This document shows positions 634 through 31,030 of a DNA stretch of 64,000 nucleotides, one piece after another (the first letter of the stretch is position 1; every line of letters begins with the position of its first letter). A model generated the notes under the pieces. The model searched no databases, had not been told where the DNA came from, and saw nothing but the letters and a program-made list of their open reading frames with translations. The position numbers were made by a program, and so were the translations under genes. The DNA is from Acidovorax sp. KKS102 (GTDB lineage: Bacteria > Pseudomonadota > Gammaproteobacteria > Burkholderiales > Burkholderiaceae_C): contig NC_018708.1 of NCBI RefSeq assembly GCF_000302535.1, positions 682,001-746,000 on the forward strand, read 5' to 3'.

Positions 634-664
634 TTGTCAAAACGTCAATGAATGGCTCTATACT
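634..664 (+). promoter_or_regulatory. Putative sigma-70 promoter of the giant surface protein
   Basis: TTGTCA (634-639) and TATACT (659-664) are good -35 and -10 matches with a slightly long 19-nt spacer. Transcription would start near 671, giving a leader of about 57 nt that ends in the ribosome site AAGGAG at 714-719, eight nt before the ATG at 728. The assignment is by eye only. Confidence 0.4.
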
Positions 665-727
665 GTCTCCCAAGTCCGAGCACAGGAATGGTCAGGGCTT
701 TTCTTTTCTAAACAAGGAGCTTCTTTA

Positions 728-13974: not shown

Positions 13975-14014
13975 AAGGGGCGCTTTTCGCAAGAAAAGCG
14001 CCCCTTGTTTTCTT
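13975..14014 (+). terminator. Strong intrinsic terminator
   Basis: AAGGGGCGCTTTT (13975-13987) pairs perfectly with 13994-14006 around the loop CGCAAG and is followed by GTTTTCTT. It is about 100 nt after the surface-protein stop and would insulate it from the SapC gene. Confidence 0.8.
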
Positions 14015-14184
14015 AGGGCCCCAGTTTTGGCATTGGCCATCCTGGCACAGCCGCTGGCGGAAAGCGTGTCTGTTCGCGGGCCGCCATACCTGTGGTGGGG
14101 GCCAGGGGTGGCGGTGTCTGCAGTGGCATCTTCGTTGGGCGAGTAGCCCATTAGGCTGCAGCCACAATAGGACGATGCATTAGG

Positions 14185-14204
14185 CATGCACCTGTAGGTG
14201 CATG
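14185..14204. repeat. Short perfect hairpin in the 13879-14571 gap
   Basis: CATGCACCT (14185-14193) and AGGTGCATG (14196-14204) form a 9-bp stem with a 2-nt loop. There is no T-run, so it may be an operator or a mRNA hairpin. Apart from the two terminators and this site, nothing gene-like was seen between 13879 and 14571. Confidence 0.4.
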
Positions 14205-14571
14205 TGAGCCCGGCTGCCGGTGCGGGCAAGGGCTAGGAGGGCTGAGGCGGGTGCAAGGTGCTCGGGGTACGGTTTTGGGCCACTATCTTGCGGTGTGGTC
14301 TGCGGCGCGCACTGTTTGATGCTGGCCGAGGGTTTGGCTGCGCACGGCTCTTTGCCTGCTGCCCTGGCAAGGTGCTAGTGCAAGTCCCCAAGGCTTTCAA
14401 CAGAGCTTGGGTCCACAGTTTCATAAAAAATATGGCTCTGGTCCTGGTGTGTGCTTGTTATTTTGCTATCGATATTGCAGTGAAATTGCAGGGGTAAACT
14501 CTGGCCGTGTGGCGGGGGCGCGTGCCCGGCTGCCTACACTAGCCCTTGCAGATTGACCACAAGCCCAACCC

Positions 14572-15411
14572 ATGACAACGACTCCAGACGCCGCGCCCAC
14601 CTCTCTTCAGTTTGTAACGCGCGGCCGCCATGCCGGGCTGTGCTGGGAGCGCCCGGCGCACTACCAAGCGGCCGCAGCGCAAGTGTTGGCTCCGCTGGCG
14701 AGTTTTGAGGCACCCGCAGCGGCCAGCCGCATGCCGTTGGCGTTTGTGGAGCAGGGGGGGCGCTGGCTGCTGGTGGCGGTGCTGGGGGTGCCGTCTGGCA
14801 CCAACCTGTGCGTGGCACCCGATGGGCGCTGGACGGGGCCCTATATCCCGGCCGTCTTCAGGGCCGCACCGTTTGCATTGCAGCCCGCGCCGGATGGGCG
14901 GCTGCTGTTGTGCGTGGATGAGGCCGCCGCGCGTGTGCGCCCGGTGGACCAGGCCGCTGCAGGCGCCGAGCCGTTTTTTGCCCCAGACGGTGCAGCTGCA
15001 CCGCTGGTGCGGGATGTGCTGGATTTTCTGACCCGGCTGGCCCAGGGGGGCAAGACGATGGAGCGCGCCTGTGCCGCGCTGCATGCACGAGGCTTGTTAG
15101 TACCCTGGAAGGTGGTGTTCCAGTCGCCGTCGGGCGAGCCGCAACCGGTGGCCGGGCTGTGGCGTGTGGACGAGGCGGTGCTGCGGCAGTTGCCGGCCGA
15201 CGCGCTGCACGCCCTGATGCAGGAGGGCGCAGTGGCACTGGCGTACAGCCAGTTGCTGTCCATGCAACACATTGCGCTGCTGGGGGATTGGCTGCAAGCC
15301 CGTGCGCTGGCTGCAACCCCACCAGCACCGGCAGCACAGACGCCAGACCTGGATGTGGTGCGCCAGTTGTTTGAGCCGGGCGCGCCAGATACTATCCAGT
15401 TCAAGTGGTAG
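14572..15411 (+). CDS. SapC-family protein
   Basis: A 279-residue protein with the SapC-family layout: an N-terminal part near HAGLCWERPAHYQAA, a central segment with MPLAFVEQGGRWLLVAVLG and GPYIPAVFRAAPF (the family motif 'YIP..vR..PF'), and a C-terminal part with LAYSQLLSMQHIALLGDWL. SapC proteins were first described beside S-layer genes (Campylobacter fetus sap locus) and often accompany type I-secreted surface proteins; their biochemical role is not settled. No signal peptide is visible, so the protein is probably cytoplasmic. Its place directly after the giant repeat protein supports an S-layer reading of the locus. No good ribosome site precedes the ATG. Confidence 0.8.
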   Translation: MTTTPDAAPTSLQFVTRGRHAGLCWERPAHYQAAAAQVLAPLASFEAPAAASRMPLAFVEQGGRWLLVAVLGVPSGTNLCVAPDGRWTGPYIPAVFRAAPFALQPAPDGRLLLCVDEAAARVRPVDQAAAGAEPFFAPDGAAAPLVRDVLDFLTRLAQGGKTMERACAALHARGLLVPWKVVFQSPSGEPQPVAGLWRVDEAVLRQLPADALHALMQEGAVALAYSQLLSMQHIALLGDWLQARALAATPPAPAAQTPDLDVVRQLFEPGAPDTIQFKW

Positions 15412-15495
15412 CACGGCCAACCGCCTCGACGATGAAGGGGTTGCAAAAGCAGGGTGCGCTGCGCAGCCTTTCAGCCATCTCTCAAATAAGGCACC

Positions 15496-16365
15496 ATGGC
15501 GACTCCCCGATCTTCCCGCTCCGGCGGTCCCCGCACAGCCGCAGGCCGCCAAGCCGTGGCTGGCAATGCGCTGCGCACCGGTGCTTACGCTGCACAGGTG
15601 GTTTTGCCGGGCGAAGACCCGGCGCATTTTGAAGAGCTGGAGCAGCAGTTTTTGCGCGACTTTGCCCCGGCAGACGTTGCCCAGAGCGCCTTGGTGCACC
15701 AGTTGGCCGTCATCACCTGGAAAAAGCTGCGCCTCGACCGCATCGAGCACAGCCATTTTCTTGGCGTTATCCAACGCCCGTTCCTGCAGCTTGAACTGGA
15801 ACCTGTGGCGCATTTGCTTCCAGCCGTTGGTGCGTTGCGCTGGGTAAACGATACACGCCACCACTCCCCCGTCGAGCGCGACAGCATATTTGCCGCCCTG
15901 CGATGGGCGGGAGAGCTGTCTCTGGTCCCTGAAGGGGGGTATCCGGCCGGCACAATGACCAGCGTCCGATCCAAGGCGCCACTGCTATACCAACACCTTG
16001 AGTCCGAGGCGCAAGACTACAGCCCCGCCATTGCGGCGTCGGACTGGCTGACCGAGGACGTGTCGAATGCGGATGGTGAAGAGGGCCTTTTTGTGACCTT
16101 GGCCTGCTTGAGTTTTTGCCGTATCTATGCCGCGTGGGAGTGGGTGGAGCCGCAACGCGAAGCAGCAGAGCAAGCCATCCGGCAGCTGCAGCAGCAGCGC
16201 ATTCTGACCAGCATGCGGCAAAGCAATGTCAATCGCATCCATGAAGATCTTGACCGGGCATTCCAGCGCAACTTGGCGGAGCTGCGCCGCCAGCAAAACT
16301 GGCGGCGTGATCGGGCAACGCGTACGATTGCACCAGAGCCTGGGCAGCCCTCTGCCGGGGCATGA
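15496..16365 (+). CDS. Conserved hypothetical protein with an N-terminal GNALRTGAYA motif
   Basis: 289 residues without signal peptide or membrane helix. The start reads RTAAGRQAVAGNALRTGAYAAQVVLPGEDPAHFEELEQ... in outline: a basic, Gly-rich leader, then a motif of the form N-A-L-(R/K)-(H/T)-G and a VVLPGEDP string. This pattern occurs in a scattered family of unknown function whose members usually follow it with a helical region containing VxQLAxxxWxxxR, as here near residues 65-85. The C-terminal third is Arg- and Gln-rich and helical. Function is unknown; DNA or RNA binding is only a guess from the basic ends. Confidence 0.55.
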   Translation: MATPRSSRSGGPRTAAGRQAVAGNALRTGAYAAQVVLPGEDPAHFEELEQQFLRDFAPADVAQSALVHQLAVITWKKLRLDRIEHSHFLGVIQRPFLQLELEPVAHLLPAVGALRWVNDTRHHSPVERDSIFAALRWAGELSLVPEGGYPAGTMTSVRSKAPLLYQHLESEAQDYSPAIAASDWLTEDVSNADGEEGLFVTLACLSFCRIYAAWEWVEPQREAAEQAIRQLQQQRILTSMRQSNVNRIHEDLDRAFQRNLAELRRQQNWRRDRATRTIAPEPGQPSAGA

Positions 16366-16574
16366 CGATAGTTGCGCAATTCAGACTGGTTCTCATCTAC
16401 GCCCCGCCCGGTGGCTGTGTTAGTACAAACCGGTCTGCCATCCCGGCACAATTGGCAACAGAAAATGGACAATGGCGGCCGGGGTGTGGTCAGCTTGGCT
16501 GGGGCGCACCGGTTTCCCGTCTGCGCTGCCGCTCCACAGCATCGCCTTCTAAAGTTTCCACCAAAGCGCACTCC

Positions 16575-17687
16575 ATGCCAAAGGCCTTGATCGTTTTGCT
16601 CAGCCCCGGTTGGTTAGGGGCCGCCCGGCTGCCCCGTGCCTTGCACCGCGCGGGCTGGCAGGTTGCATCGCTGTGCTCGCCCGGCAATCTGCTGGCTCAC
16701 AGCCGTTTTGCGGGCACGGTCACCGTGGCTGCGTCCGGCGATACGTTGTGGGCTGATCTGCTTGGGGTGGTACAGGCAGAAAAGCCGGACGTGCTCATTC
16801 CCGGGTGCGAGGGTGCCGTACGTTTTTTCCAGCTGGTTGTAGCGTCCGCGCTCGGGCAGGTGTTGTCGGCGCAGGCAGCGGCGGTACTTGCATTGGTGCG
16901 TGCGGCAGTAGGCACCGGGCATCATCACCATGCCACGCTCAGTAAGACCGCAATTCATGCGCTTTGCCTGGAGTGGGGCCTTCCGGTGCCGCGCCAACTG
17001 CCCGTGCGTACAGCGCACGACGCCATCACGGCGGCAGCCAACTTGGGGTACCCGCTGGTTCTCAAGGGCGAGCACGGTTTTGCGGGCCAGCAGGTTCGCA
17101 TTTGTCGCGACCCGCTGGAGCTGCTGTGGGCGTATCAGGACCTTCACCGCGCTCATCCGGGCGGTCACATCGATGCGCAGCAGTACGTTCATGGCACTGT
17201 TGCCATGTGTGCGGGCGCTGCCAAGGGTGGCAGTTTGCTGGACAGTGTTTTTGCCCTCAAGCGTCATACCCACCCAGGCGCTACGGGTCCATGCAGTGTG
17301 TTTGAGTTTGCAGATGATGCACGCCCAGCCGCCATGCTGGCGACTTTCGTACGCCAGCTGGGGTTTACCGGCCTGTGCAGCGTAGATCTTATGGTGGAGG
17401 AGGGCACGGGCAACCTGTTCGTGCTGGAGCTCAACCCGCGGCCCGTTCCTTTGAGTTCGCTGGGCCATCTGGCCGGTCATGACCTTTGCGAGGCATTGGC
17501 ACGGGCTTTTGGCGGCGAACACGCAGGTGCAAACGCTGAGCAGAGCGACAGGCCGCCATTTGTGGCGCTGTTTCCCAACGAATGGACCCGCGACCCTGAT
17601 AGCCCCTGGTTGCACGCGGCGCACCACGATGTGCCCTGGGACGATCCGCCATTGCTCAGCGCGATCATCGCATCGCGTGTGCTGTGA
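16575..17687 (+). CDS. ATP-grasp domain protein
   Basis: Start placed at ATG 16575, giving 370 residues beginning MPKALIVLLSPGWLGAARLP. The frame is open to 16362, but that extension is unlike the family. The order is that of ATP-grasp enzymes: a Rossmann-like preATP-grasp part (1-115), LGYPLVLKGEHGFAGQQVRI (the ATP-binding lysine strand) at about 155-175, and FVLELNPRPVPLSSLGHLAGHDL near the C-terminus with the metal-binding N-P-R motif. The closest type is the carbamoyl-phosphate-synthase-like ATP-grasp ligases that join a carboxylate to an amine or thiol. The substrate is unknown. The location between SapC and glycosyltransferase genes suggests modification of a surface sugar or lipid. Confidence 0.7.
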   Translation: MPKALIVLLSPGWLGAARLPRALHRAGWQVASLCSPGNLLAHSRFAGTVTVAASGDTLWADLLGVVQAEKPDVLIPGCEGAVRFFQLVVASALGQVLSAQAAAVLALVRAAVGTGHHHHATLSKTAIHALCLEWGLPVPRQLPVRTAHDAITAAANLGYPLVLKGEHGFAGQQVRICRDPLELLWAYQDLHRAHPGGHIDAQQYVHGTVAMCAGAAKGGSLLDSVFALKRHTHPGATGPCSVFEFADDARPAAMLATFVRQLGFTGLCSVDLMVEEGTGNLFVLELNPRPVPLSSLGHLAGHDLCEALARAFGGEHAGANAEQSDRPPFVALFPNEWTRDPDSPWLHAAHHDVPWDDPPLLSAIIASRVL

Positions 17688-17720
17688 CTGCGGCGATGCC
17701 AAAAACCCTTGCTCAATCTC
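17671..17720 (+). repeat. Imperfect direct repeat, first copy (second at 19247-19296)
   Basis: About 50 nt spanning the end of the ATP-grasp gene (TCGCGTGTGCT ... GCGATGCCAAAAA ... CTCAAT) recurs at 19247-19296 with roughly 80 percent identity by eye. The two copies bracket the glycosyltransferase gene at 17834-19159. Confidence 0.5.
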
Positions 17721-17833
17721 GTCAGATGTCCACCCATCTGCCTCAAGCTATATTGCTTTTACCGCGACGTGCTCAGCGTCTTCGCCGCAAGTCGAATGGA
17801 GCACGGGCCAAACTTTGAACGCCCGCCAGTCAG

Positions 17834-19159
17834 ATGAACCACGACAAAAATACGCCTCCACCACACAAGGCGGCATCTTCTGCTGTGCCGCGAAAAAAGC
17901 GGCTGCTGTGGGCTAATGTGTACTGCCTGCTGGATACATCCAGCGGCGCCGCTATGGCCGTACGGCAAATGCTGCTCCAGCTGCAAAGTGCGGGCTGGGC
18001 GGTAGACATTCTGGGGGCCGCCGTGTTTGACCATGCGCGAGGCACCGCAGGTCTGCAGGGCCAATGGGCAGCGCTTAGGCAGCATGAAGGCAGCCTGGTG
18101 AATGTGGAGGATGGCACGCTTGTGCACCGTTTGCTGGTTACATCCAGTACCGATCGAGGTGCAATGACCAATCGGGAGGAGGGCGCCTGGTTTGGTCTGT
18201 ACGAGCAGGCGCTAGAGCTGGAGCGGCCTGATGTGGTTTTTTACTATGGGGGGCAGCCCTTTGATTTTCTGATCGCCAGCGAGGCCGCTCGGCGTGGTGT
18301 CCCGGTGGTGTTTTATCTGGCCAATGGCAACTACACCAAAAAACGCTGGTGCCAGGATGTGGACCTGATCCTCACTGACTCGCAGGCCACAGCCAGTCTC
18401 TACAAACAACGACTGGGCGTCGACGTCGTCCCGGTGGGCGCTTTCATTGATCCCAACCGGGTGGTGGCTGCGCAGCGCGAGCCCGAGCGGCTGCTGTTCA
18501 TTAACCCCAAGCCTGAAAAGGGGGCGCTGTGGGTGGCACGCCTGGCCTTGTGGCTGGAGCAGCACCGCCCCGACATTGTGCTGGAGGTGGTGGAAAGCCG
18601 GGGCCAGTGGTCCGACGCCGTGCGCACCATGACCCATGCACTGGGGCAGCCCCGCGATACCCTCCGCAATGTCGTGGTTACCGCCAACACCAGCGATATG
18701 CGGCCCATCTATGCCCGCGCCAGGGTGGTGCTGGCGCCCAGCCTGTGGTGGGAGAGCGCCGGCCGGGTGCTGGCCGAGGCCATGCTTAACGGTATTCCGG
18801 CCATCTGCACCAACCGGGGTGGCATGCCGGAGATGGTGGGGGACGCGGGCATTTTGCTCAACTTGCCTGAGAAGTACCACCAGACCCCATACAACGCATT
18901 GCCGGCGGAAGACGAAGTGACACCACTAGGTCACTGTGTCGTGGCATTGTGGAATGACACGCAGCGCTACGAAGACCTTGTGCAAAAGGCCTTCCGGGTT
19001 GGCAAGCAGCGCCACAGCCTGCAGGCCAATACGGTCCGGTTGCTGCGGGTTCTGGACGCGTTGCTAGGTCCAGCTTGGCCATCGACGATGCCCAGCGGTG
19101 AATCTGCCGTGGACGAAGGGAGGGGCAGTCTTGCCCCAGTTACGCCCGGTAGGTGCTAG
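17834..19159 (+). CDS. Glycosyltransferase, GT4-like
   Basis: 441 residues without membrane helices. The C-terminal half has the GT-B nucleotide-sugar site with the EX7E pair in WESAGRVLAEAMLNG and the loop NRGGMPEMVGDAGILL, which is typical of family 4 retaining glycosyltransferases. The N-terminal half contains the acceptor-domain start LLWANVYCLLDTSSGAAMAVRQML. Donor and acceptor are unknown. Together with the second GT4-like gene, the ATP-grasp gene and the WecA-like gene it suggests glycan synthesis for the surface layer. It converges with the gene at 19275-20306. Confidence 0.75.
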   Translation: MNHDKNTPPPHKAASSAVPRKKRLLWANVYCLLDTSSGAAMAVRQMLLQLQSAGWAVDILGAAVFDHARGTAGLQGQWAALRQHEGSLVNVEDGTLVHRLLVTSSTDRGAMTNREEGAWFGLYEQALELERPDVVFYYGGQPFDFLIASEAARRGVPVVFYLANGNYTKKRWCQDVDLILTDSQATASLYKQRLGVDVVPVGAFIDPNRVVAAQREPERLLFINPKPEKGALWVARLALWLEQHRPDIVLEVVESRGQWSDAVRTMTHALGQPRDTLRNVVVTANTSDMRPIYARARVVLAPSLWWESAGRVLAEAMLNGIPAICTNRGGMPEMVGDAGILLNLPEKYHQTPYNALPAEDEVTPLGHCVVALWNDTQRYEDLVQKAFRVGKQRHSLQANTVRLLRVLDALLGPAWPSTMPSGESAVDEGRGSLAPVTPGRC

Positions 19160-19274
19160 GGCTGCGCGAGCATCGCGCGACCCAGGCAAGCCTCACGCCT
19201 GAGTTCGGGGCGTCCCATTGCTTGATTGCACTTGGAACTGTCAGCGCTTCGCGTGTGCTTGACGCCATGCGATG

Positions 19275-20306
19275 CTAAAAAACCTGACTCAATTGCGCGC
19301 CCCATGTCCAGGAGGCATGGGCCCGCTCACTCGCCAGGCGTGCCTTGGCTGAGGCGGTGTCGTAATCTGCGACCACTTGGCGCATCAAAACCACCAGGTG
19401 TTCTTCGTCGGGATCCGCCCATTGGCTTGCAATGTGCGGGAAACACCGCGTGTCTGCATCGACCAGCCGCCGGTTATGAATAAGGTAGGCTGTCTCGGGC
19501 GTGCAGAAGTCCAGATGCCCGCCAAAGTCAGTGGCAATCACGGGAAGCCCGGTCGCCATGGCCTCCAGAAACGGCAAGCCAAAGCCTTCCCCGCGGGTGG
19601 GCAGCACAAAGCAGTGGGCTGCCTGGTAAAGCTGGGCCATGGCGACATCGTCCTCCAGAAGCTGGTGCACTACGCGCACCTTGGTGGGGTGTTTGATTGC
19701 TCTGCGAAGGTCGCCTGGCCCATGCAGGCCGACCTTGATGACCAGTTGAACATCGGCCCGGTTGTCAAAAGCGCGCTCAAAGCATTCGATGAGCATGGGG
19801 AGGTTTTTGCGCGGAGTGTGTTCCGCAACACAGAGGAAGATGAATGGCGTATCCAAAGTTCTTGCCCTGTAGCGATAGTGCTGCGGGTCAAAACCATGGC
19901 CGAGAACGTCAACCGGTATCTTGATCCCACTGGCCAGGAAAACATCTCGCACAAATTTGCTGCAGGCATATACGCGGTCGTTGGCGTTGATGGTGCTAAC
20001 GATGGTGCCAGGCAGTGTGGCGGCTTCGTAAAACAACCACGGTGTCATCTGGCGGGCGCACCGGGGTTTGCGCGCTTCGAGCACCGACCCGTAAGTCACC
20101 ATCTGGTCTACGGTTTCTACGGTGGGGTTGGGGTTCAGAAGCGCACGAGTTTTTGCAGACCATCGTGGCTCCATGAAGTCGGTGCGGAAGGGGGAAAAGC
20201 TGACGCTGTAGCGCTGGGTTTGCAGCAGGTGCGACAAAAAATACTGGCCCACCCGGCCCATGCTTCGGGGACCACCGAGGAAGCCGTGATAGCAAATGGA
20301 GTGCAT
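19275..20306 (-). CDS. Glycosyltransferase, GT4-like (minus strand)
   Basis: 343 residues starting MHSICYHGFLGGPRSMGRVGQ. Family 4 features: FIFLCVAEHTPRKNLPMLIE at the start of the GT1/GT4 C-terminal domain, the acidic EX7E motif in GEGFGLPFLEAMATGLPV, and ATDFGGHLDF. No membrane segment is present. It is the only minus-strand gene in the first 56 kb, lying convergent to one glycosyltransferase and divergent from the small gene at 20522. Specificity is unknown. Confidence 0.75.
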   Translation of the reverse strand: MHSICYHGFLGGPRSMGRVGQYFLSHLLQTQRYSVSFSPFRTDFMEPRWSAKTRALLNPNPTVETVDQMVTYGSVLEARKPRCARQMTPWLFYEAATLPGTIVSTINANDRVYACSKFVRDVFLASGIKIPVDVLGHGFDPQHYRYRARTLDTPFIFLCVAEHTPRKNLPMLIECFERAFDNRADVQLVIKVGLHGPGDLRRAIKHPTKVRVVHQLLEDDVAMAQLYQAAHCFVLPTRGEGFGLPFLEAMATGLPVIATDFGGHLDFCTPETAYLIHNRRLVDADTRCFPHIASQWADPDEEHLVVLMRQVVADYDTASAKARLASERAHASWTWGAQLSQVF

Positions 20307-20521
20307 ACGATTGATTGTGCTCTTTGTCTCCGGCTACACCCATTTTCGGGTCGGAGCGTGCAAAAGCGAGCGAGCCGGGGTGTAACCTCCTTGTGGAGGC
20401 TTCCTCGTGTTTTGGTGGAATGTCTCGCCGGCGATGGCTGTTCCATTGCGCGGGCGGGCGATAATTCTCAAGCCGCCCGGTCAGGGCATGTTTTTATTTT
20501 TCTTTTCAGACAGGAATCACG

Positions 20522-20761
20522 ATGGCTTTGCCAGAATCCCTCACCTTCAACGGCAACGAGTACTCCGTGGCTGCCCTGAGCGAGGCTGCGCGCGTTCAGA
20601 TTACGAATATCCAGGCAGTGGACGCCGAAATCGCCCGGTTGCAGTTGCAGTTGGGCATTGCCCAGACAGCACGCAGCGCCTATGTGGGTGCCTTGTCCGC
20701 TGCGATGCCGGCTGCGTCCAATGTGGTGTCGTCCGACGCACCCGCAGTGTCTGCGGCTTGA
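20522..20761 (+). CDS. Small protein with DUF6447-like N-terminus
   Basis: 79 residues: MALPESLTFNGNEYSVAALSEAARVQITNIQAVD..., then a helix IARLQLQLGIAQTARSAYVGAL and an Ala/Ser-rich tail. The pattern LxFNGxxYxxxxLSxxAxxQIxNIxxxDxEIxxLQxxLAIAQTARxxY is a small family often seen beside type I-secreted surface proteins. AGGAA at about 7 nt before the ATG serves as ribosome site. It may bind the secreted protein or the ABC complex, but this is inference from location. Confidence 0.65.
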   Translation: MALPESLTFNGNEYSVAALSEAARVQITNIQAVDAEIARLQLQLGIAQTARSAYVGALSAAMPAASNVVSSDAPAVSAA

Positions 20762-20794
20762 GGCTGTGCAATTTGGTGTGGGCTCTGCGCTGCA

Positions 20795-20809
20795 GGAGGG
20801 TTGCCCTCC
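20795..20809 (+). promoter_or_regulatory. Hairpin holding a Shine-Dalgarno-like GGAGGG
   Basis: GGAGGG (20795-20800) and CCCTCC (20804-20809) form a 6-bp stem with a 3-nt loop just upstream of the next gene. It may limit translation of that gene. The spacing to ATG 20819 is too long for an ordinary ribosome site. Confidence 0.35.
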
Positions 20810-20818
20810 ATCCCCGCC

Positions 20819-21385
20819 ATGAAGCAGTTTGAGCGCATTACCACCGAGTACGTGGAGGCAGAGGATCGCATTCGCATGGCGGGAACTTTGCACGGCGGGG
20901 AGTTGGTTGTTGCTTGGTTCACGCAGCGTTTGCTCCAACGGCTGGTGGCTGCGTTGGTGCAGCAGTTGCAGGGACAGGGCGCAGGCGTACCGAGGTCAGA
21001 TGGGCCCAGGGCGGACATGTTGGCGCCCGATGCCCTGAGAGCACAGGTGATGCAAGGGTTTGCACAACAGGCAGCCCGGGCGAAGCTGGCGCCCCAGCCC
21101 GCAGTACTTGCTGCACCCGACCACGAGGCATGGTTGGTCCACGAAGTGAATGTCGCTCAACTTCCGCAGGCGGTGCAGCTCACTTTCAAGGGTATGCGCA
21201 CCGGCTCCGGCGTTGAACGCACCCCGATCGGCGTGCTGGTGCTGGCGCCAGAACCTTTGCGTCAGTGGCTTTGTATTCTCTACGACAACTATCGCAAGGC
21301 TGGCTGGCCCTTGCAGGTATGGCCAGATTGGGTGACCGAGAGTGCAGTGGCCAGCGTCCCGGCGGGAACGACTCTGCTGCATTGA
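20819..21385 (+). CDS. Hypothetical protein in the secretion locus
   Basis: 188 residues from ATG 20819 (an in-frame TTG at 20801 lies inside the ribosome-site hairpin). Not recognised. It begins MKQFERITTEYVEAEDRIRMAG and has a helical segment with WFTQRLLQRLVAALVQQLQ (about 30-50), an Ala/Gln-rich middle, and a C-terminal beta-rich part that ends in LCILYDNYRKAGWPLQVWPDWV. No signal peptide, no membrane helix, no cysteine cluster. It follows the DUF6447-like gene by 57 nt and is probably co-transcribed with it. A role with the type I substrate or apparatus is possible from location only. Confidence 0.6.
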   Translation: MKQFERITTEYVEAEDRIRMAGTLHGGELVVAWFTQRLLQRLVAALVQQLQGQGAGVPRSDGPRADMLAPDALRAQVMQGFAQQAARAKLAPQPAVLAAPDHEAWLVHEVNVAQLPQAVQLTFKGMRTGSGVERTPIGVLVLAPEPLRQWLCILYDNYRKAGWPLQVWPDWVTESAVASVPAGTTLLH

Positions 21386-21518
21386 GTGCATCGGCAACAG
21401 TGGCATACGCGACTCTCGCCCAGCGCTCCGCCGGAAGGACGGGTTGGTGTTGTGCTCGCTTCGTCTTGCACAGGCGGCAGATTGAATTTGCTCAAGTGCT
21501 TTTTGCAGGCACATTTTG

Positions 21519-21546
21519 CACCTCCCTGCTGGAATGGCCGGAGGTG
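21519..21546. repeat. Weak hairpin in the 21386-21767 gap
   Basis: CACCTCC (21519-21525) and GGAGGTG (21540-21546) form a 7-bp stem with a 14-nt loop, followed by ATTTCG. It could end transcription of the small genes upstream. Nothing else recognisable was seen in this 380-nt gap until the promoter at 21706. Confidence 0.3.
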
Positions 21547-21705
21547 ATTTCGTGCTGAGGAGTTGGGCGCTTTTGCGCCGAGGCTGCTTGCGAGGATGTG
21601 CCTGCGTGGCGCCAGTAAATCCTTCCGCTCAACGCGTGGTCTGCCTCAAAGGTATCTGCTGAGGTGTTGTGGAGTTGTGCGTGTAATGCGGCCTCGTGTT
21701 GCGTG

Positions 21706-21735
21706 TTGACGACGGCATAAATATATTCATATAGG
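21706..21735 (+). promoter_or_regulatory. Putative promoter of the TnpB-like/type I secretion operon
   Basis: TTGACG (21706-21711) is followed after 18 nt by TATAGG (21730-21735), in an AT-rich patch that stands out from the surrounding GC-rich DNA. The -10 box lies in the left arm of the inverted repeat, so binding there would block transcription. Confidence 0.45.
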
Positions 21736-21773
21736 AATTATTTAGCGCGATAGAATGCGCTTCCTATATGAAT
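21725..21773. promoter_or_regulatory. 13-bp perfect inverted repeat spanning the start codon of the TnpB-like gene
   Basis: ATTCATATAGGAA (21725-21737) is repeated in inverse as TTCCTATATGAAT (21761-21773), with a 23-nt spacer that itself carries GCGC near each end (21745-21748, 21757-21760). The right arm contains the ATG (21768-21770). The left arm overlaps the putative -10 box. It could be an operator, or a leader hairpin that hides the start codon. Confidence 0.75.
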
Positions 21774-22391
21774 TTAGTGCTGTGTGTTCCTCTTCATGCG
21801 TCTCCGGAGCAGTACGCCCGGTTGCAGGCGTTGCAGAGGGTTTTTGCGCAGGTATGCAATGCGTTGGCGCCGCTGGTGCGGCAAACGCGGGTGTGGAACC
21901 GGGTGGCATTGCACCATCTTGCCTACCGCCAGCTGCGAGAGCAGTTTCCTGCCCTCGGGTCTCAAATGGTGTGCAACGCCATCTACTCCGTGTCGCGTAC
22001 CTGTCGCAAGGTTTACCAGCATCCCGATAGTCCGTTCAACCTGACGCGTTTGGGTAATCGGCCATTGCCGTTGTTGCGGTTCGCCGACAGCTGTCCCGTG
22101 TATTTCGACCGGCACACGCTCAGTCTGAAATCCGGTCAATTGTCCATGTTCACGCTGGATGGACGCATGCGCTTTCAGTTGGCCTTGCACCCTGAAGACG
22201 AGGCGGCCTTCCATTCCCGCAAATTGCGCGAGATTGTGCTGTCTCGGCGGGTTGACGGCGTGTATCAGTTGGCATTCTGGTTGGCCGAAGTTGACAGTAA
22301 CCAAACGAAGCCGGCAGGCGCCGAGTTAGAGGCGGCCCAGCCCGAGCAGGGCGAAATTCCAGAGTATGTGATGGTGGAGGAAACTGAATGA
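21768..22391 (+). CDS. TnpB-like protein without RuvC nuclease domain, type I secretion operon
   Basis: 207 residues. The sequence follows the N-terminal (REC/WED) half of IS605-type TnpB proteins: a start with LHASPEQYARL, N at 44 then HHLAYRQLREQF (49-60), SQMVCNAIYSVSR (65-77), a Tyr-Asp-like F-D with LSLK (118-121), TLDGRMRF (129-135), and a closing beta strand YQLAFWLAEVD (166-176). In TnpB the next segment is the RuvC domain starting with a D-L-G motif. Here it is missing, and the protein ends in an acidic tail (EAAQPEQGEIPEYVMVEETE). No nuclease activity is expected. Its stop overlaps the next ATG (ATGA at 22388), so it is coupled to the ABC transporter gene. Role unknown; an RNA-guided or direct repressor is conceivable by analogy with nuclease-dead TnpB-like repressors. 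The homology is by eye and needs a profile search. Confidence 0.6.
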   Translation: MNLVLCVPLHASPEQYARLQALQRVFAQVCNALAPLVRQTRVWNRVALHHLAYRQLREQFPALGSQMVCNAIYSVSRTCRKVYQHPDSPFNLTRLGNRPLPLLRFADSCPVYFDRHTLSLKSGQLSMFTLDGRMRFQLALHPEDEAAFHSRKLREIVLSRRVDGVYQLAFWLAEVDSNQTKPAGAELEAAQPEQGEIPEYVMVEETE

Positions 22392-24139
22392 GTCAACAGA
22401 AAACCCCTTCGGAGTTGCGCGAGGCGCTGATCACTCTCCGGCCTTATTTGGTGCGTGCGACATGGTTTAGCCTGGTGGGGAGCCTGCTCTTGCTGGCGCC
22501 CACTGGTTACATGCTGGAGGTGTACGACCGTGTGGTGAGCAGCCGCAATCACCTGACATTGGCCATGCTGACTGTGCTAGTGCTGGGCGTGTACGCTGTG
22601 ATGGAGGTGGTCGATTGGGCGCGTAACGAAATTTTGCGGAGTGCCGGCCACGCACTGGACCGACAGTTGTCCGGCCGCATTTTCGACGTGGTGTTTGAGG
22701 CTAGCCTCAAGCGTGTCCCCGGTGGCACGCCGCAGTCCATGAGCGATTTCAGAACGGTACGCGATTTTCTGCATGCGCCGGTGCTGGTGGCGATGATGGA
22801 GGCGCCAGTTGCACTGGTGTTTATGGTGTTGATTTTTGCCATCAGCCCGGTACTGGGTTGGGCTGCGGTGGCAGGGGCTGTTGTGCAGACGGCGGTTGCT
22901 TGGCTGAACGAACGCGGCAGCCAGCCGCCGTTGGCCCTGGCCAACCGCACGGCGATTGCGGCGCAGCAATATGCCGATGGTTCATTGCGCAATGCCGAAG
23001 TGATCGAGTCGATGGGGATGCTGCGCAATATCCACCGCCTGTGGATGAACAGGCAGAGCGAGTTTTTGAAGCTGCAAGCGCAAGCTTCGGATGTAGCGGG
23101 TGTATTTCAGGCCATTTCCAAGTTCGTACAGCAGGTGATGGGTTCGCTCCTTCTGGGGCTTGGTGCTTGGCTATTGCTGCGCAACCAGCTCAACGGTGGT
23201 TCGGGCATGATGATCATCGCCTCGGTGCTGGGCGGGCGCATGCTGGCACCGCTGGTGCAGATTGTCTCCCAGTGGCGTGCGGTGGTGAGTGTGCGCATGG
23301 CTTGGGCCCGGCTGGATCAGCTGCTGCGCCAGTTGCCCAAGCGCCCTCCCGCCATGGAGTTACCGCCACCCAAGGGTGCGCTGGCGGTTGAGGGGGTGAC
23401 GGCGGGTGCCCCGGGTTCGCCAGCCGCCATTGTGCGCGGCATACAGTTCTCTATTCTGCCTGGTCAGGTGCTCGCGGTGGTGGGGCCGTCTGCCTCGGGT
23501 AAGACCACGTTGGCAAGGCTGCTCACGGGGCTGTGGCCAGCAGCCGTGGGCAAGGTGCGTCTTGATGGGGTGGATGTATTCATTTGGAACAAGGCTGAAC
23601 TGGGCCCCCACGTAGGGTACCTGCCTCAAGGGGTGGAGTTGTTCGAGGGGACGCTGGCTGAGAACATTGCCCGCTTTGGTCCGGTGGACCGCACCCGGGT
23701 CGAGGAGGCGGCAAAGCTGGTGGGCCTGCATGAGCACATCATGTCATTGCCACAGGGTTACGACAGCGCTGTGGGGCGCGACGGCGCGATGCTGTCTGGT
23801 GGGCAGCGACAGCGTGCGGCTCTGGCACGCGCGCTGTATGGCAACCCTGTGTTTGTGGTGCTTGATGAACCCAATTCCAGCCTGGACGAGGAAGGCGATG
23901 CGGCACTGGCTGCCGCCATCACGGCACTCAAGGCGCGTGGCACTACGTTCGTGGTCATGACTCACCGCACCAGTGTGTTGGCAGTGGCCGATCTGATGCT
24001 GGTGATGCGCGATGGCACGCAGCAGGCCTTTGGTCCGCGTGACGAGGTGCTGGCGGCATTGACCAAAGCGTCGCAGGAGTCAGCACAGGCGCGGCCGGCG
24101 TCGCAGCCGGTGGGCCTGCTGGCGCCAGCCGCAGCGTGA
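22388..24139 (+). CDS. Type I secretion ABC transporter ATPase/permease (first copy)
   Basis: 583 residues, the usual length of PrtD-type exporters without an N-terminal peptidase domain. Membrane part (about 1-320) begins with SLVGSLLLLAPTGYMLEVYDRVV. The nucleotide-binding part has Walker A GPSASGKTT (about 365), the signature LSGGQRQR (about 468) and Walker B VFVVLDEPNSSLD (about 487). It would energise export of the RTX-like surface protein across both membranes with the adaptor and outer-membrane genes downstream. Translation is coupled to the TnpB-like gene by an ATGA overlap. It is clearly different from the second copy that follows 25 nt later. Confidence 0.92.
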   Translation: MSQQKTPSELREALITLRPYLVRATWFSLVGSLLLLAPTGYMLEVYDRVVSSRNHLTLAMLTVLVLGVYAVMEVVDWARNEILRSAGHALDRQLSGRIFDVVFEASLKRVPGGTPQSMSDFRTVRDFLHAPVLVAMMEAPVALVFMVLIFAISPVLGWAAVAGAVVQTAVAWLNERGSQPPLALANRTAIAAQQYADGSLRNAEVIESMGMLRNIHRLWMNRQSEFLKLQAQASDVAGVFQAISKFVQQVMGSLLLGLGAWLLLRNQLNGGSGMMIIASVLGGRMLAPLVQIVSQWRAVVSVRMAWARLDQLLRQLPKRPPAMELPPPKGALAVEGVTAGAPGSPAAIVRGIQFSILPGQVLAVVGPSASGKTTLARLLTGLWPAAVGKVRLDGVDVFIWNKAELGPHVGYLPQGVELFEGTLAENIARFGPVDRTRVEEAAKLVGLHEHIMSLPQGYDSAVGRDGAMLSGGQRQRAALARALYGNPVFVVLDEPNSSLDEEGDAALAAAITALKARGTTFVVMTHRTSVLAVADLMLVMRDGTQQAFGPRDEVLAALTKASQESAQARPASQPVGLLAPAAA

Positions 24140-24164
24140 CGGCGGGGTTTTTACACAGAACACT

Positions 24165-25916
24165 ATGACCAATTCCAAGTTTTTCGACCGCAGTGATCTG
24201 ACCCGTACTTTGTGGGCTTTTCGCCGCGAGTTTTTCATGGTGGGGATTTTCAGCATGGTGGCTAACTTGCTGATGCTGACCCCCACTCTCTACATGCTGC
24301 AGGTGTACGACCGCGTGCTGGTCAGCGGCAGCGAGCTGACGTTGCTGGCGGTGTCGCTGGTGACCTTGTTTTTGCTCGGCATGATGTCGTTTTCCGAGTG
24401 GTCGCGCTCGCGGCTCTTGGTGCGCACGGGTGTGCGCCTGGACGAGATGCTTGGTACCAAGGTATTCAATGCCAGCTTTGAAGCCTATCTGTCGCAGTCC
24501 GGCCACAACCCGTCGCGGGCCTTTGCTGACCTGACCGAGTTGCGCCAATTCATGACGGGTAATGGGGTATTTGCTTTTTTCGATGCGCCATGGACGCCCA
24601 TATACATCGGAGTTTTGTTCTTGCTGCACCCTTGGCTAGGTGTAGCGGCCATTCTTTTTACCTTGGTGCAGATGGCGCTGGCATGGTTCGGACACCGCCA
24701 CACCATCGCGCCGCAGGGGGCTGCTAGCAAAGCACAGGCCGAAGTAAACGCCTATTTGCAGGGCAAGCTGCGTAATGCCGAGGTGCTGGAGTCCATGGGC
24801 ATGCTTGGTAATCTGCGTGGTCATTGGGCGGTGCGCAATGACAAGGCGCTGCGGGATGCCCACGCTGCGCAGGGCATTTCCGGGCGTGTAACGGCCTGGA
24901 GTAAGTTCATTCGCTATTCGCAGCAGTCGCTTTCTCTCGGGATTGGTGCGTTGCTGGTGATCGATGGTCAGATGACGCCGGGCGCCATGATTGCGGGCAA
25001 TGTGCTGATGACGCGTGCGTTGGCTCCGATTGATCAGTTGGTCAGTTCCTGGCGTGGGTTCATTGGGGCGCGCGACGCGTTTGCACGCCTTGAAGCTCTG
25101 CTGGAGGCGCACCCTGAGCGCGACCCGGCGCTAACCCGAGTGCCGCCCACCGGAGCCATTGCCTTGCACGGTGTGGTGGCCACCGCCTCAGGACGCGATG
25201 AGCCAATACTCAAAGGTATTGATTTGGAGGTTCCTGCGGGCACGGTAACGGTGGTACTGGGGCCGTCGGGTTCGGGCAAGTCCACGCTCGCACGCGTGAT
25301 CATGGGCATCTGGCCCGAGGTGTCGGGCGAGGTGTTGCTCGATGAGCGCCCGATCCAGGGCTGGAATCGTACCGAGCTTGGCCCGCATTTGGGGTATCTG
25401 CCCCAGGACATTGAACTTTTTGAGGGCTCGATTGCCGAGAACATTGGCCGCTTCACTGAAATGGATTCGCCCAAGGTAATCGCTGCAGCCGAGTCCGCAG
25501 GTTTGCATGAAATGATTCTGCGTTTTCCCAAGGGCTATGACACCTCGATTGGGGAGGCGGGAAGCCTGCTTTCGGGGGGGCAGCGCCAGCGCATTGGGCT
25601 TGCGCGTGCCATTTACGGGGACCCTGCGCTGGTGGTGCTGGACGAACCCAACGCCAATCTGGACGATGCTGGTGAAGCAGCACTGCTCAAAACAGTGCGC
25701 GAGCTCAAGGCCAAGGGCAAGACCGTGTTTCTCATCAGTCATCGCCCCGGTGTGGTGGCCGTTGCCGACCGGCTGCTGGTTCTGCGCGATGGCCGGGTGC
25801 ATGCAGAGGGGCCGCGCGATGCGGTGATGACTGCGTTGCAGGCTGGCCGTCAGCCACCCCCCACTGCGACGCCGGATACCGATGCCCCAGCGCATTCGCT
25901 TCCTGCTGCCGCATAG
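24165..25916 (+). CDS. Type I secretion ABC transporter ATPase/permease (second copy)
   Basis: 583 residues, the same length and layout as the preceding gene but diverged: membrane start MVANLLMLTPTLYMLQVYDRVL, Walker A GPSGSGKST (about 365), signature LLSGGQRQR (about 467), Walker B LVVLDEPNANLDD (about 488). No peptidase domain. Both copies keep complete ATPase motifs, so both could be active; they may form a heterodimer or serve different substrates. The C-terminal tail (Pro/Thr-rich) ends only 52 nt before the adaptor start. Confidence 0.92.
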   Translation: MTNSKFFDRSDLTRTLWAFRREFFMVGIFSMVANLLMLTPTLYMLQVYDRVLVSGSELTLLAVSLVTLFLLGMMSFSEWSRSRLLVRTGVRLDEMLGTKVFNASFEAYLSQSGHNPSRAFADLTELRQFMTGNGVFAFFDAPWTPIYIGVLFLLHPWLGVAAILFTLVQMALAWFGHRHTIAPQGAASKAQAEVNAYLQGKLRNAEVLESMGMLGNLRGHWAVRNDKALRDAHAAQGISGRVTAWSKFIRYSQQSLSLGIGALLVIDGQMTPGAMIAGNVLMTRALAPIDQLVSSWRGFIGARDAFARLEALLEAHPERDPALTRVPPTGAIALHGVVATASGRDEPILKGIDLEVPAGTVTVVLGPSGSGKSTLARVIMGIWPEVSGEVLLDERPIQGWNRTELGPHLGYLPQDIELFEGSIAENIGRFTEMDSPKVIAAAESAGLHEMILRFPKGYDTSIGEAGSLLSGGQRQRIGLARAIYGDPALVVLDEPNANLDDAGEAALLKTVRELKAKGKTVFLISHRPGVVAVADRLLVLRDGRVHAEGPRDAVMTALQAGRQPPPTATPDTDAPAHSLPAAA

Positions 25917-25968
25917 GTGCTACTTCTTCTTTTCCCCTCGATCACACCATTTTTTAGCCGAGATTGTC

Positions 25969-27345
25969 ATGGCCATTCAAGACGTTTCCCCCAAACGCCC
26001 TAGCCCCGAGGTGGGCGGCGCGTTGGCGGCACCCGCCGCAGCTCAGGAGTCTCCCTCCGCTTCCGATACCAAGAGTCCGGCACGCATAGGCCTGTGGGCG
26101 CTGGGCTTGGGCTTGGGCGGTTTTCTTCTCTGGGCTGCGCTCGCGCCGCTGGATGAAGGGGTGCCGAGCCAAGGCATGGTGGCTATAGATACAAAACGCA
26201 AGGCTGTACAACACCTGACAGGTGGCATTGTCAAAGAGGTTCTAGTGCGCGAAGGCCAAGTGGTCAAAGAGGATGAGGTTCTCATTCGACTCGATGAGGC
26301 CACTGCACGTGCCAACTATGAAGGGGTGCGCCAGCGCTATCTGGGACTGCGCGCGATGCAGGGCCGTTTGCTGGCCGAGCAGTCGCGCAGCAGCACGGTA
26401 ACGTTCCACCCGGATCTCAAGGCCGCGCAGTCCGACCCGCTGATTCGTCAGCAGATGGTCACGCAGGAGCAGCTGTTCCGCGCCCGGCAAGAGGCTTTGC
26501 GAGCGGATATCCAGGGTATCAATGAGAGTATTGAGGGGCAGCAAGCGCAGTTGCAGGCGTACGAGAGCATGCTTGCCAGCCGTCGCAGTCAGTTGGCGCT
26601 CCTCAGTGAGGAGTTGGGCAATACACGTGAAATGGTCAAAGAGGGTTATGCGCCTCGCAATCGGCAACTCGAGTTGGAGCGCATGGTGGCGGAGTCCAAT
26701 TCTTCCATTGCCGATCTTCTTGGGAATGTAACTCGTGTACGTCGGTCAATTGCTGAACTTCGTCAGCGGACGATCGTTCGCCAGCAGGAGTATCGCAAGG
26801 AGGTGGAGTCGCAACTGGCGGACGTGACCCGCGAGGTGCTGTCCGATGCTGAGAAATTTGTGGCGGTCAAGGCGGACATGGAGCGGCTTGAGATCAAAGC
26901 CCCTGTAGCTGGTCAGGTGGTGGGGCTGGCCGCACAGACCGTTGGCGGTGTGGTGCAGCCCGGGCAGAAGTTAATGGATATTGTTCCCGTGGATCAGGCG
27001 CTTCTGCTGGAGGCGCACGTGGCGCCAAACCTGATCGACAAAGTACATGCAGGCCTGCCTGTTGACATTCGCTTCTCGGCCTTCGCTCACTCGCCACAGT
27101 TGGTGGTGGCTGGCAAAGTGGTGTCAGTTTCAGGTGACTTGTTATCTGACCCCCAGAATCCTCAGGTGTCTTATTACCTCGCTCGGGTGGGGGTTACGCC
27201 GGAAGGTGTCAAGACCTTAGGCTCGCGTCAGATGCAGCCTGGTATGCCGGCTGAACTTGTGATCAAGACAGGAGAGCGGTCGATGCTCACGTATCTCTTG
27301 CATCCGCTGACAAAGCGTCTGGCTGCATCCATGAAGGAGGAGTGA
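25969..27345 (+). CDS. HlyD-family type I secretion periplasmic adaptor
   Basis: 458 residues from ATG 25969; the frame opens earlier, inside the previous gene, but MAIQDVSPKR... fits the family. One membrane helix near residues 45-65 (IGLWALGLGLGGFLLWAALAPLD) follows a cytoplasmic leader. Then come lipoyl half-motifs (VSQGMV-like VPSQGMVAIDTKRKAVQHLTGGIVKEVLVREGQVV), a long coiled coil with many Gln and Glu (about 120-310), and the second lipoyl half EIKAPVAGQVVGLA with a beta-barrel end. This is the HlyD/PrtE layout. It links the ABC exporter to the TolC-type pore. Confidence 0.93.
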   Translation: MAIQDVSPKRPSPEVGGALAAPAAAQESPSASDTKSPARIGLWALGLGLGGFLLWAALAPLDEGVPSQGMVAIDTKRKAVQHLTGGIVKEVLVREGQVVKEDEVLIRLDEATARANYEGVRQRYLGLRAMQGRLLAEQSRSSTVTFHPDLKAAQSDPLIRQQMVTQEQLFRARQEALRADIQGINESIEGQQAQLQAYESMLASRRSQLALLSEELGNTREMVKEGYAPRNRQLELERMVAESNSSIADLLGNVTRVRRSIAELRQRTIVRQQEYRKEVESQLADVTREVLSDAEKFVAVKADMERLEIKAPVAGQVVGLAAQTVGGVVQPGQKLMDIVPVDQALLLEAHVAPNLIDKVHAGLPVDIRFSAFAHSPQLVVAGKVVSVSGDLLSDPQNPQVSYYLARVGVTPEGVKTLGSRQMQPGMPAELVIKTGERSMLTYLLHPLTKRLAASMKEE

Positions 27346-27348
27346 GCG

Positions 27349-28719
27349 ATGAAAAGAGGACAGAGCTTTTCGGCAACCCATGGCTCCCGCCGTGTACTGG
27401 GAGCTTTCGGTGTACTGCTCAGTGCGGCTGCGGCGCTGCCCGTGTGGGCCCTGGATTTTGATCAGGCGTATCGTGCCGCGAGCGAAAACGATGCAACTAT
27501 TCGCGCAGCTCGGTCTGCTGCTGATGCGGGCCGAGAGAGGTTGCCGCAGGCACGTGCGCAACTACTGCCGAACGTATCCTTGAGCGCAGGGCGCACCCAC
27601 AACGATTTGACCAGCGAGACGCGAAACTTTTTGGGTCAGCCAGTCACAACCAGAAGCCAATATTACAGTGGCAGTCAGGCGCTGTCGGTACGTCAGCCAA
27701 TTTATCGTCCCCTCATAAACGCGTCGGTACGCCAGGCGCAGGCACAGTTGGAAGATGCCGAGGCGGCTCTGGAGAGAGATGAGCAGGCGCTCGTTACTCG
27801 GGTGGCTGAGGCATATTTTGACGCTTTGCTCGCTAGAGACCAGTTGAGCTTGGTGAGTGCGCAGAAGAAGACGTATACCACTCAGGTGGATGCTGCGCGA
27901 AAGGGGTTTGCGGCAGGATCAGGTACGCGCACCGATGTAGATGAAGCCCAGGCCAGATTAGATTTGACGCTGGCGCAGGAGCTGGAGGCTCAGCAAAATG
28001 TTGAGTTCACCCACCGACGACTCGCGGTCATTACGGGGAGCGAAGTGGACGCATTGGCGGTACTTGATGTTGCTAGATTTTCTCCCTCCGCTCCTGTGCC
28101 GGCCAGCCTGGATGCCTGGGTAGAACGCGCCGAGCGGGCCAGTCCAGAGCTGGCTTCTTTAAGAGCGCAAGTTGAAGCGGCGCGTCTGGAGATCGAGAAG
28201 GCGCAGACGGGTCATAAACCGACTTTGGATTTGGTAGCGCAATGGTCACGCACCAATAGTGACAGCGTGACAAGCGTTAATTCGCGCTATGACAACAAAA
28301 CGATTGGGCTCCAGCTATCGGTGCCCTTGTACTCTGGGGGCTATGTCAGTTCTACAGTGCGTCAGGCCGTCGCTGCGCATGATCGAGCACGCGAATTACT
28401 TGAAGCTGCGCGCCGAGATCTGGGTGTACGCGTCCATCGCGAATTCCGAGGGGTGACGGAGGGTGTTTTGCGTGTGGCGGCTTTAGAGCAAGCAGTGCGT
28501 TCTGCTGATCAGGCGCTACTCTCTAACCAAAAGTCTTTTAAGGCTGGCATGCGAACGTCCCTGGATGTTCTAAACGCAGAGCAGCAAAGGATCCTGGCAC
28601 TACGTGATTTGGCGCAAGCGCGCTACGTCTATATGCTTTCCAGCCTGCGTTTGGAGTCCCTTGCTGGGGAAGACCGTCAATCGATTGTTACCAAGGTCAA
28701 TGGTTGGCTCATGCCATGA
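27349..28719 (+). CDS. TolC-family outer-membrane channel of the type I system
   Basis: 456 residues, starting four nt after the adaptor stop, with AAGGAGGAG upstream. A signal peptide is visible (basic start MKRGQ..., hydrophobic stretch VLLSAAAALPVWA, cleavage probably after VWA). Mature part begins LDFDQAYRAASENDATIRAAR and shows the two-fold helical repeat of TolC/PrtF proteins, with YFDALLARDQL in the first half and VHREFRGVTEGVLRVAALEQAVRSA in the second. It completes the ABC-adaptor-pore set encoded from 22388. Confidence 0.93.
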   Translation: MKRGQSFSATHGSRRVLGAFGVLLSAAAALPVWALDFDQAYRAASENDATIRAARSAADAGRERLPQARAQLLPNVSLSAGRTHNDLTSETRNFLGQPVTTRSQYYSGSQALSVRQPIYRPLINASVRQAQAQLEDAEAALERDEQALVTRVAEAYFDALLARDQLSLVSAQKKTYTTQVDAARKGFAAGSGTRTDVDEAQARLDLTLAQELEAQQNVEFTHRRLAVITGSEVDALAVLDVARFSPSAPVPASLDAWVERAERASPELASLRAQVEAARLEIEKAQTGHKPTLDLVAQWSRTNSDSVTSVNSRYDNKTIGLQLSVPLYSGGYVSSTVRQAVAAHDRARELLEAARRDLGVRVHREFRGVTEGVLRVAALEQAVRSADQALLSNQKSFKAGMRTSLDVLNAEQQRILALRDLAQARYVYMLSSLRLESLAGEDRQSIVTKVNGWLMP

Positions 28720-28727
28720 GTACAGCT

Positions 28728-28743
28728 GGAGAGAGGTCTCTCC
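28728..28743. repeat. Small hairpin after the TolC-type gene
   Basis: GGAGAGA (28728-28734) and TCTCTCC (28737-28743) form a 7-bp stem. No T-run follows, so termination is doubtful. Confidence 0.3.
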
Positions 28744-28891
28744 GGAGCAGATGTTGGGTGGTCAGAGCTTTGCACTAGATTGCCGGTTTTTCGCATCAGC
28801 TCGAGTACTGTCCTGCGGGCGCAGATGTGTAAGACCTCTATGTTAGCGGGCAGAATAATTGTGAGGAGACGTTTGCGCCGAGCTCCCGCGC

Positions 28892-30043
28892 ATGTCGTTG
28901 GTTACACGACCGGTGACAATGTATGCATACCATGGGCTCGTTATGATTTGGATGGCTTTCGTATCGTTTGTTGTGTCTGTGCTGGCAGCTGGGTTTGTCG
29001 TGCGCTATATGAGGTTGCACGCACGAGCTTATGGTGAAGCCATGCCACAACGGTTTCACCTGGGGGACGTACCTCGACTTGGTGGAGTGGCAGTGTTGTT
29101 GGGCATGATTGGTGGGTGGGGCTTGGGTGTGGTTCAGACCGGTTTCGGAGACTTGGCCTCGCTGAGGCTTGATGCGTGGGTGGGGCTCTGGCTATTGGTG
29201 ATGCTGCCATCGGCGGGGGGCGGAATTGCGGAGGATATGACCCAGCGACTACCTGTTCGGTATCGATTGGGGCTCACCGCGGCATCGGGTGCTCTTGCTG
29301 TGTTTTTGTTAGGCATGACGGTTAAACGCCTCGAATTCCCGTTTGCAGATGCGTTTTTAGTAGCAGCTCCTTGGGTCGGGAGCCTCATTGCTTTGTTTGC
29401 CGTCGCAGGCCTGCCCCATGCCTTCAACATCATCGACGGGTACAACGGGTTGGCGGGAATGGTTGCCTTGATCGTGTGCCTCGCTTTGGCGCACGTGGCG
29501 CTGCAGGTGGGCGATCGTGCGCTGGCGGCACTGCTCGTATCCACCGCTGCGGCCACCGGCGGCTTTCTGGTCTGGAACTACCCGCGCGGCATGTTGTTTG
29601 CCGGAGATGGGGGCGCGTATGTATGGGGCGTGGTGATCGCCATGGCCAGCATCTCGCTGGTGCAGCGCAATGCGGACGTATCCCCCTGGTTCCCGATGCT
29701 GCTCCTGATCTACCCGGTGTGGGAAACGATCTTTTCCATTTACCGCAAGGCGGTGCGGGGTGTTTCTCCGGGGGTGGCGGATGCTCTGCACTTCCACCAG
29801 CTCATCTACCGCCGCATCGTGCGCGGGGTATTTCACGATGATGAGTCTCGTCGGGTGCTCATGCGCAACAACCGCACGTCACCTTATCTGTGGGGTTTCA
29901 CGCTCTTGACCGTGGTGCCGGCGGTGCTGTTCTGGAACAACACCCCCTTGCTCATGGCGTTTTGCGGGTTGTTTGTAGTCAGCTATGTGATGGCCTATCT
30001 GGCCATCGTGCGGTTCAAAGTGCCGAACTGGTTGCGGCACTGA
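28892..30043 (+). CDS. WecA/MraY-like undecaprenyl-phosphate sugar-phosphate transferase
   Basis: Up to 383 residues; the true start may be ATG 28919 or 28943, since none has a clear ribosome site. About ten hydrophobic helices. Family 4 polyprenyl-phosphate transferase motifs are present: [13 protein letters not shown] at the first cytoplasmic loop, [16 protein letters not shown] (usually N-x-x-D-G-x-x-G-L) near 190, [22 protein letters not shown] (the Mg-binding F-x-G-D-x-G/S motif), and a His-rich loop [14 protein letters not shown]. One oddity is [18 protein letters not shown], where MraY/WecA usually read DD; here it is E-D. Enzymes of this type start lipid-linked glycan synthesis. The gene may start the glycan that the GT4 genes extend. 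Confidence 0.8.
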
Positions 30044-30119
30044 AGTCTTCTTGTGTTCGCGTGCCCGGCGAATGCGGCACAATTTGCGCCTCACTGTTTT
30101 CTCCGGATGGCACGCCTCC

Positions 30120-31010: not shown

Positions 31011-31030
31011 TCTCCCTGCGCGAGGGCTCC

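Follow-up and report, generated by a model that had tools for sequence, protein, structure and literature searches.

To our knowledge, all known regulators derived from TnpB and Cas12 are RNA-guided. The TldRs have been described as TnpB-derived RNA-guided repressors with an inactivated RuvC domain, associated with fliC, oppF and csrA (PMC13418256). For ISDra2 TnpB, it has been described that WED and REC form a cleft around the TAM duplex, that WED and RuvC are the main contacts of the omegaRNA scaffold, and that REC and RuvC hold the heteroduplex (PMC10097598). Searches of the open-licence PMC literature listed neither a TnpB regulator lacking RuvC nor a TnpB belonging to a type I secretion operon.

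A candidate for such a protein is encoded in the window, i.e. the whole stretch of 64,000 nucleotides from Acidovorax sp. KKS102 (contig NC_018708.1, positions 682,001 to 746,000) that was analysed, where the gene for a 207-residue protein, termed X in the following, opens a type I secretion operon. The features of the locus, all given as positions in the window, are as follows.

21726..21737, plus strand: putative operator O1, TTCATATAGGAA, whose 5' end reads TTCAT; covers part of the would-be −35 position for the −10 box at 21751
21751..21756, plus strand: putative −10 box TAGAAT, between O1 and O2, 11 bases 5' of the ATG
21761..21772, plus strand: putative operator O2, TTCCTATATGAA, equal to TTCATATAGGAA on the opposite strand; overlaps the start codon of X
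21768..22391, plus strand: X, TnpB-derived protein of 207 aa with WED and REC only, RuvC absent (from ORF, homology and model)
21804..22067, plus strand: residues 13-100 of X, REC-like, with helices at 13-40, 45-59 and 64-84; limits inferred from the secondary structure of the model
22068..22292, plus strand: WED-like beta barrel of X, residues 101-175, with strand 1 formed by residues 3-8; limits likewise inferred from the model
22293..22388, plus strand: C-terminal tail of X (residues 176-207), acidic with a net charge of −8, conserved motif EIPEYVMVEE
22388..24139, plus strand: PrtD-like type I ABC exporter 1 (PrtD1), whose start overlaps the stop of X
24165..25916, plus strand: PrtD-like type I ABC exporter 2
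25969..27345, plus strand: HlyD-like membrane fusion protein, ORF open from 25882
27349..28719, plus strand: TolC-like outer membrane channel

We consider it fairly probable that X is a TnpB cut down to WED and REC and domesticated at the head of the secretion operon, where it acts as an autorepressor that reads TTCAT-containing operators without a guide and probably as a dimer.

Sequence comparison shows that X and the N-terminal half (WED and REC) of one lineage of IS605 TnpBs, the TTCAT type, are homologous, and residues 1-180 of its structural model match Cas12f and TnpB structures, with Cas12f providing the best structural matches. The WED and REC lobe of IS200/IS605 TnpBs is thus present in X by profile and structure comparison; RuvC and the TNB zinc ribbon, the latter found as PF07282 in the TTCAT-type TnpBs P0121 and L092, are absent from the 207 aa, which stop before RuvC-I. 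The original prediction from the DNA alone, a TnpB-like protein without its RuvC nuclease, has been borne out in both parts. Pfam, NCBIfam and PDB sequence searches with X or its alignment gave no match, the Pfam TnpB domain included. The core of X is basic with a mean pI of 9.7 and the tail acidic; 58 of the 207 positions are invariant in the alignment of X proteins (A1), and Q66, C69, N70, D114 and T117 are common to X and the TTCAT-type TnpBs (alignments A2 and A4). Profile comparison of X with an ISDra2-like alignment, a weak test with an alignment of three sequences only, gave no match, so that the mapping of TAM contacts is purely fold-based. The TAM contacts of ISDra2 TnpB have been described as Y52, S56, K76, F77, Q80, T123 and N124 (PMC10097598). 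Placed by eye on X with guidance from the secondary structure, they would correspond to V46, H50, S65, Q66, C69, D114 and R115, an assignment that is not relied on; all seven of these residues of X are invariant in A1. One further match, L083 (26% identity, four internal stops), was dropped as a TnpB-like ORF is absent there.

One copy of X is present in its own genome. A protein search over candidates of 0.55-1.75 times the length of X retrieved 4,803 proteins with E <= 0.001, the best 120 of which comprise 200-219 residues with 72-100% identity to X. X forms a single, vertical-looking clade. Of 174 loci that matched in the species-genome collection, the best 80 were compared: a PrtD1 homologue follows directly after X on the same strand in 78, and in the remaining two the contig ends 77 and 7 bases past X; in the same 80 loci the genes upstream of X vary, and apart from the exporter genes X is the only one conserved in the operon. 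Reading of the ORF list noted no transposase among the window ORFs. Carriage between left and right transposon ends is not the situation of X, which sits in the exporter operon in those 78 of the best 80 of 174 loci, and no member of the clade is part of a transposon whose RuvC is intact. The expectations that X does not neighbour a transposon and has a fixed place within a type I secretion operon hold. Like the TldRs, X is TnpB-derived and stably located next to a set of host genes. Taxonomically, X occurs in 24 of 250 genomes of the same family; its profile matches 16 of 300 genomes of the order, eight with X beside PrtD1 and eight TnpB-like, and three of 369 genomes of the class, one of them spurious. 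Four weak TnpB-like matches in the profile search fall in G379, G515, G552 and G594 (L096-L099).

The surroundings of the operon contain further genes. Two overlapping plus-strand ORFs in different frames, 605-8965 (2786 aa, DUF4214) and 8779-13878 (1699 aa, RTX calcium-binding repeats), may be the two parts of a single giant, exported RTX protein whose frame has been broken by a frameshift; a product of this region is a likely substrate of the exporter. A SapC-family gene lies near the export operon (14572-15411), with related genes preceding X in a few other loci, and a 194-aa ORF without Pfam match (20801-21385) is located just 5' of the operator, with relatives before X in some loci only.

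The promoter of X carries a conserved site, TTCATATAGGA, usually in two copies, one of them across the start codon of X. Allowing one mismatch at most in 10 fixed positions, at least one site was found in all 79 promoters (79/79); among the 74 loci whose upstream sequence was long enough, 59 possess two sites, five three and ten one, i.e. two or three sites in 64/74, with a site across the X start codon in 61 and with 26, 27 and 13 bases as the commonest spacings. The 152 sites of the 79 promoters, which are related by descent, constitute an imperfect palindrome with an information content of 1.82 bits at position 1 and 0.47 bits at position 12. This conserved site, which the original prediction had not seen, lends support to its suggestion that X is a regulator. 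In the 74 loci, the distance from the end of the −10-like hexamer to the ATG is 6-12 bases, and a match of at least five of six bases to TATAAT is present in 47/74 promoters versus 10/370 upstream control windows, which predicts a transcription start a few bases 5' of the ATG and a nearly leaderless X mRNA; a sigma-70 consensus scanner reported no full promoter in the window. No other 9-mer is widely shared in the 600 upstream bases, the best being found in 10/74 loci versus 8 in shuffles. An RNA hairpin as the function of the inverted repeat is less likely: shuffled sequences fold as well as the predicted 5' RNA (z −0.15), and O1 should stay untranscribed because the −10 box sits between the arms, which counts against a hairpin.

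In IS605 biology, the motif that immediately precedes the left end of an element serves as its target motif and as the TAM. Comparison of TnpB transposon copies revealed that the shared transposon sequence begins at TTCATAG in 11/11 copies with a readable left end (six in G386, three in G459 and two in G514), with unrelated flanks of 24% mean identity; outside this count stand L094, which diverges, L103, which is not readable, and L092, L102 and L111. Following the IS605 rule, TTCAT would be the insertion motif and TAM of the TnpB relatives of X, with the element border at TTCA, TTCAT or TTCATA. The boundary was first found by a pattern-free comparison of copies, and a later search pattern itself contained TTCAT. 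The same TTCAT is the most conserved end of the X operator: in a search that did not constrain positions 4 and 9, an exact TTCAT half occurs in 151 of the 152 operator sites of the 79 promoters and two TTCCT halves in none, a conservation partly built in, as TTC and TATA belonged to the operator search pattern. The chance of a given 5-mer occurring anywhere in an 11-mer on either strand is about 1.4% by our own arithmetic. G386 harbours several near-identical copies of a TTCAT-type TnpB element of 427-439 aa (L101, L105, L107-L110), a useful source of a full-length relative.

X keeps the surface of the TAM cleft with WED and REC and has lost half of the scaffold-binding surface, namely RuvC. 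On balance, and a shade less firmly than the reading as a whole, we favour that the TAM-reading cleft has shed RNA, guide and nuclease to become a stand-alone transcription factor, and that the target motif has become an operator in which a dimer binds two TAM-like halves of opposite orientation. In mechanistic terms, X would bind its operators via the WED/REC cleft that formerly read the TAM and would recognise them without a guide RNA, with two X subunits each reading one half of the near-palindrome TTCnTATAnGAA. Positioned over promoter and start codon, X would repress its own operon, and its acidic tail might modulate binding; that the tail competes with DNA or docks a partner is a guess.

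Among the alternatives, the one that survives best, albeit unlikely, regards X as a RuvC-less relative of the TldRs that receives its guide RNA from elsewhere in the genome, with the operator composed of the TAM TTCAT and the six-base seed ATAGGA. The conserved length of 11 would agree with five plus six bases, the seventh base after TTCAT being nearly free (the 0.47 bits mentioned above), the seed of TldRs has been described as nucleotides 1-6 (PMC13418256), and WED, one of the two binders of the omegaRNA scaffold, is retained. RuvC, the partner in holding scaffold and heteroduplex (PMC10097598), is however gone, and a guide locus was found neither by synonymous variation, Rfam and upstream 9-mers nor by searching the own genome for PF07282 and TTTACATAGGA. 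Synonymous variation along X is not lowered, so that no hidden guide RNA is signalled, with residues 181-195 not measurable; Rfam gave no match in window positions 14000-31100; PF07282 is absent from the whole own genome, which consequently has no such TnpB to lend an omegaRNA; and exact TTTACATAGGA, a transposon-type scaffold end plus seed, does not occur in the own genome, its one-mismatch form being present at 14 places versus four for the control. At its 3' end, the X gene runs straight into PrtD1. Furthermore, the six bases hardly vary over the 79 promoters, where guide and target could have drifted together, and in the distant member, with TTCATATATGAA, they differ by one base. Of the two modes considered possible in the original prediction, a guide-RNA-dependent and a simple DNA-binding regulator, the analysis thus favours the latter, because RuvC is missing and no guide-RNA locus has been found. 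As a separate observation, TTTGCATAGGA occurs in the own genome in three copies exactly 738 bases apart (G000:C1:4254388-4255874), which hints at a 738-base tandem repeat.

Rather improbable, and more so than guidance by RNA, is that another regulator binds the operators with X as a passenger or in another role, such as RNA binding or help in exporter assembly. DNA binding by X is putative, and near-palindromic sites are typical of many ordinary repressors; the distribution of the site, however, argues against a regulator other than X. Within the best 30 PrtD1 loci from 56 genomes with a match, the operator is present in the fetched stretches upstream of PrtD1 in 22/24 loci with X versus 0/6 without X (hypergeometric 4.7e-5). 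The six exporters lacking both X and operator are close to PrtD1 of the window (L183 in G707, L182 in G901, L185 in G824, L197 in G844, L201 in G827 and L202 in G743), three of them with 69-70% identity, and such X-less exporters may reveal what X adds. G844 belongs to the window's own genus. Equally against another regulator speak the upstream neighbours, which are not conserved and leave X as the only conserved non-exporter gene of the operon, and the coincidence of TTCAT with the insertion motif of the relatives of X.

The site can be followed further through the genomes. A search of the entire own genome places the pattern TTCNTATANGAA at two positions, both at X, and the reversed control pattern likewise at two. 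Exact TTCATATAGGA is present in 44 of 250 family genomes, 20/24 with X and 24/226 without X; the exact 11-mer is thus absent from four of the 24 genomes with X, and the single copies in 24/226 X-less genomes exceed the reversed control (three genomes among those listed). Around the copies fetched from 16 of these 24 X-less genomes, neither X nor PrtD1 was near (0/16). Among 20 divergent X loci, 16 carry the site with one mismatch at most, one with two mismatches, and three have tolC ahead of X; in these tolC-first operons the sites precede tolC, with twin sites in two genomes and one 1-mismatch site in the third. The X of G688 has only a 2-mismatch site, and that of G782 is a contig-edge fragment. 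As the sites precede tolC where tolC comes first and the operator is absent at X-less exporters, the site, judged from the compared upstream stretches, is a marker of the head of X-containing operons.

That X binds the operators yet activates, or that the sites mainly set the dosage of X with the exporter otherwise controlled, is very improbable, since the lack of a sigma-70 promoter with a good −35 in the window, which would suit an activator, is set against sites that overlap the flanks of the −10 box and the start codon in a repressor-like placement.

If the reading of X as a guide-free autorepressor is true, X would represent a new class of bacterial DNA-binding regulator, in which the TAM-reading half of TnpB/Cas12 recognises a promoter alone. 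A programmable nuclease could then decay into a repressor of fixed specificity, with X kept across many genera together with its TTCAT-bearing operator, and a minimal natural TAM/PAM-reading module of approximately 175 residues would be at hand. X makes specific RNA-free DNA binding by WED and REC directly testable and would equally give a type I export system that is widespread in Burkholderiales a named controller.

Compared with known systems, the PrtD/HlyD/TolC operons without X (e.g. G707, G901 and G824) possess exporter subunits up to 69-70% identical and lack the operator in the fetched upstream stretches. Cas12f, the dimeric miniature Cas12, is the best structural match, with X having half its length and no nuclease lobe. 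The TTCAT-type TnpBs of IS200/IS605 (L092, P0121, P0122 and L095) share with X the sequence and fold of WED and REC as well as the TTCAT motif, but possess RuvC, the TNB zinc ribbon and transposon ends, none of which is found in X. The TldRs as described resemble X in being TnpB-derived, located outside transposons, linked to a host operon and directed to a promoter target with a TAM; they carry an inactivated RuvC and a linked guide RNA (PMC13418256), whereas in X RuvC is entirely absent and a guide locus was not found. The conserved site of X lies in its own promoter, which also sets it apart from the TldRs. Because of the absence of RuvC and of a detected guide, X is not classed as a TldR, though it may act like one in effect.
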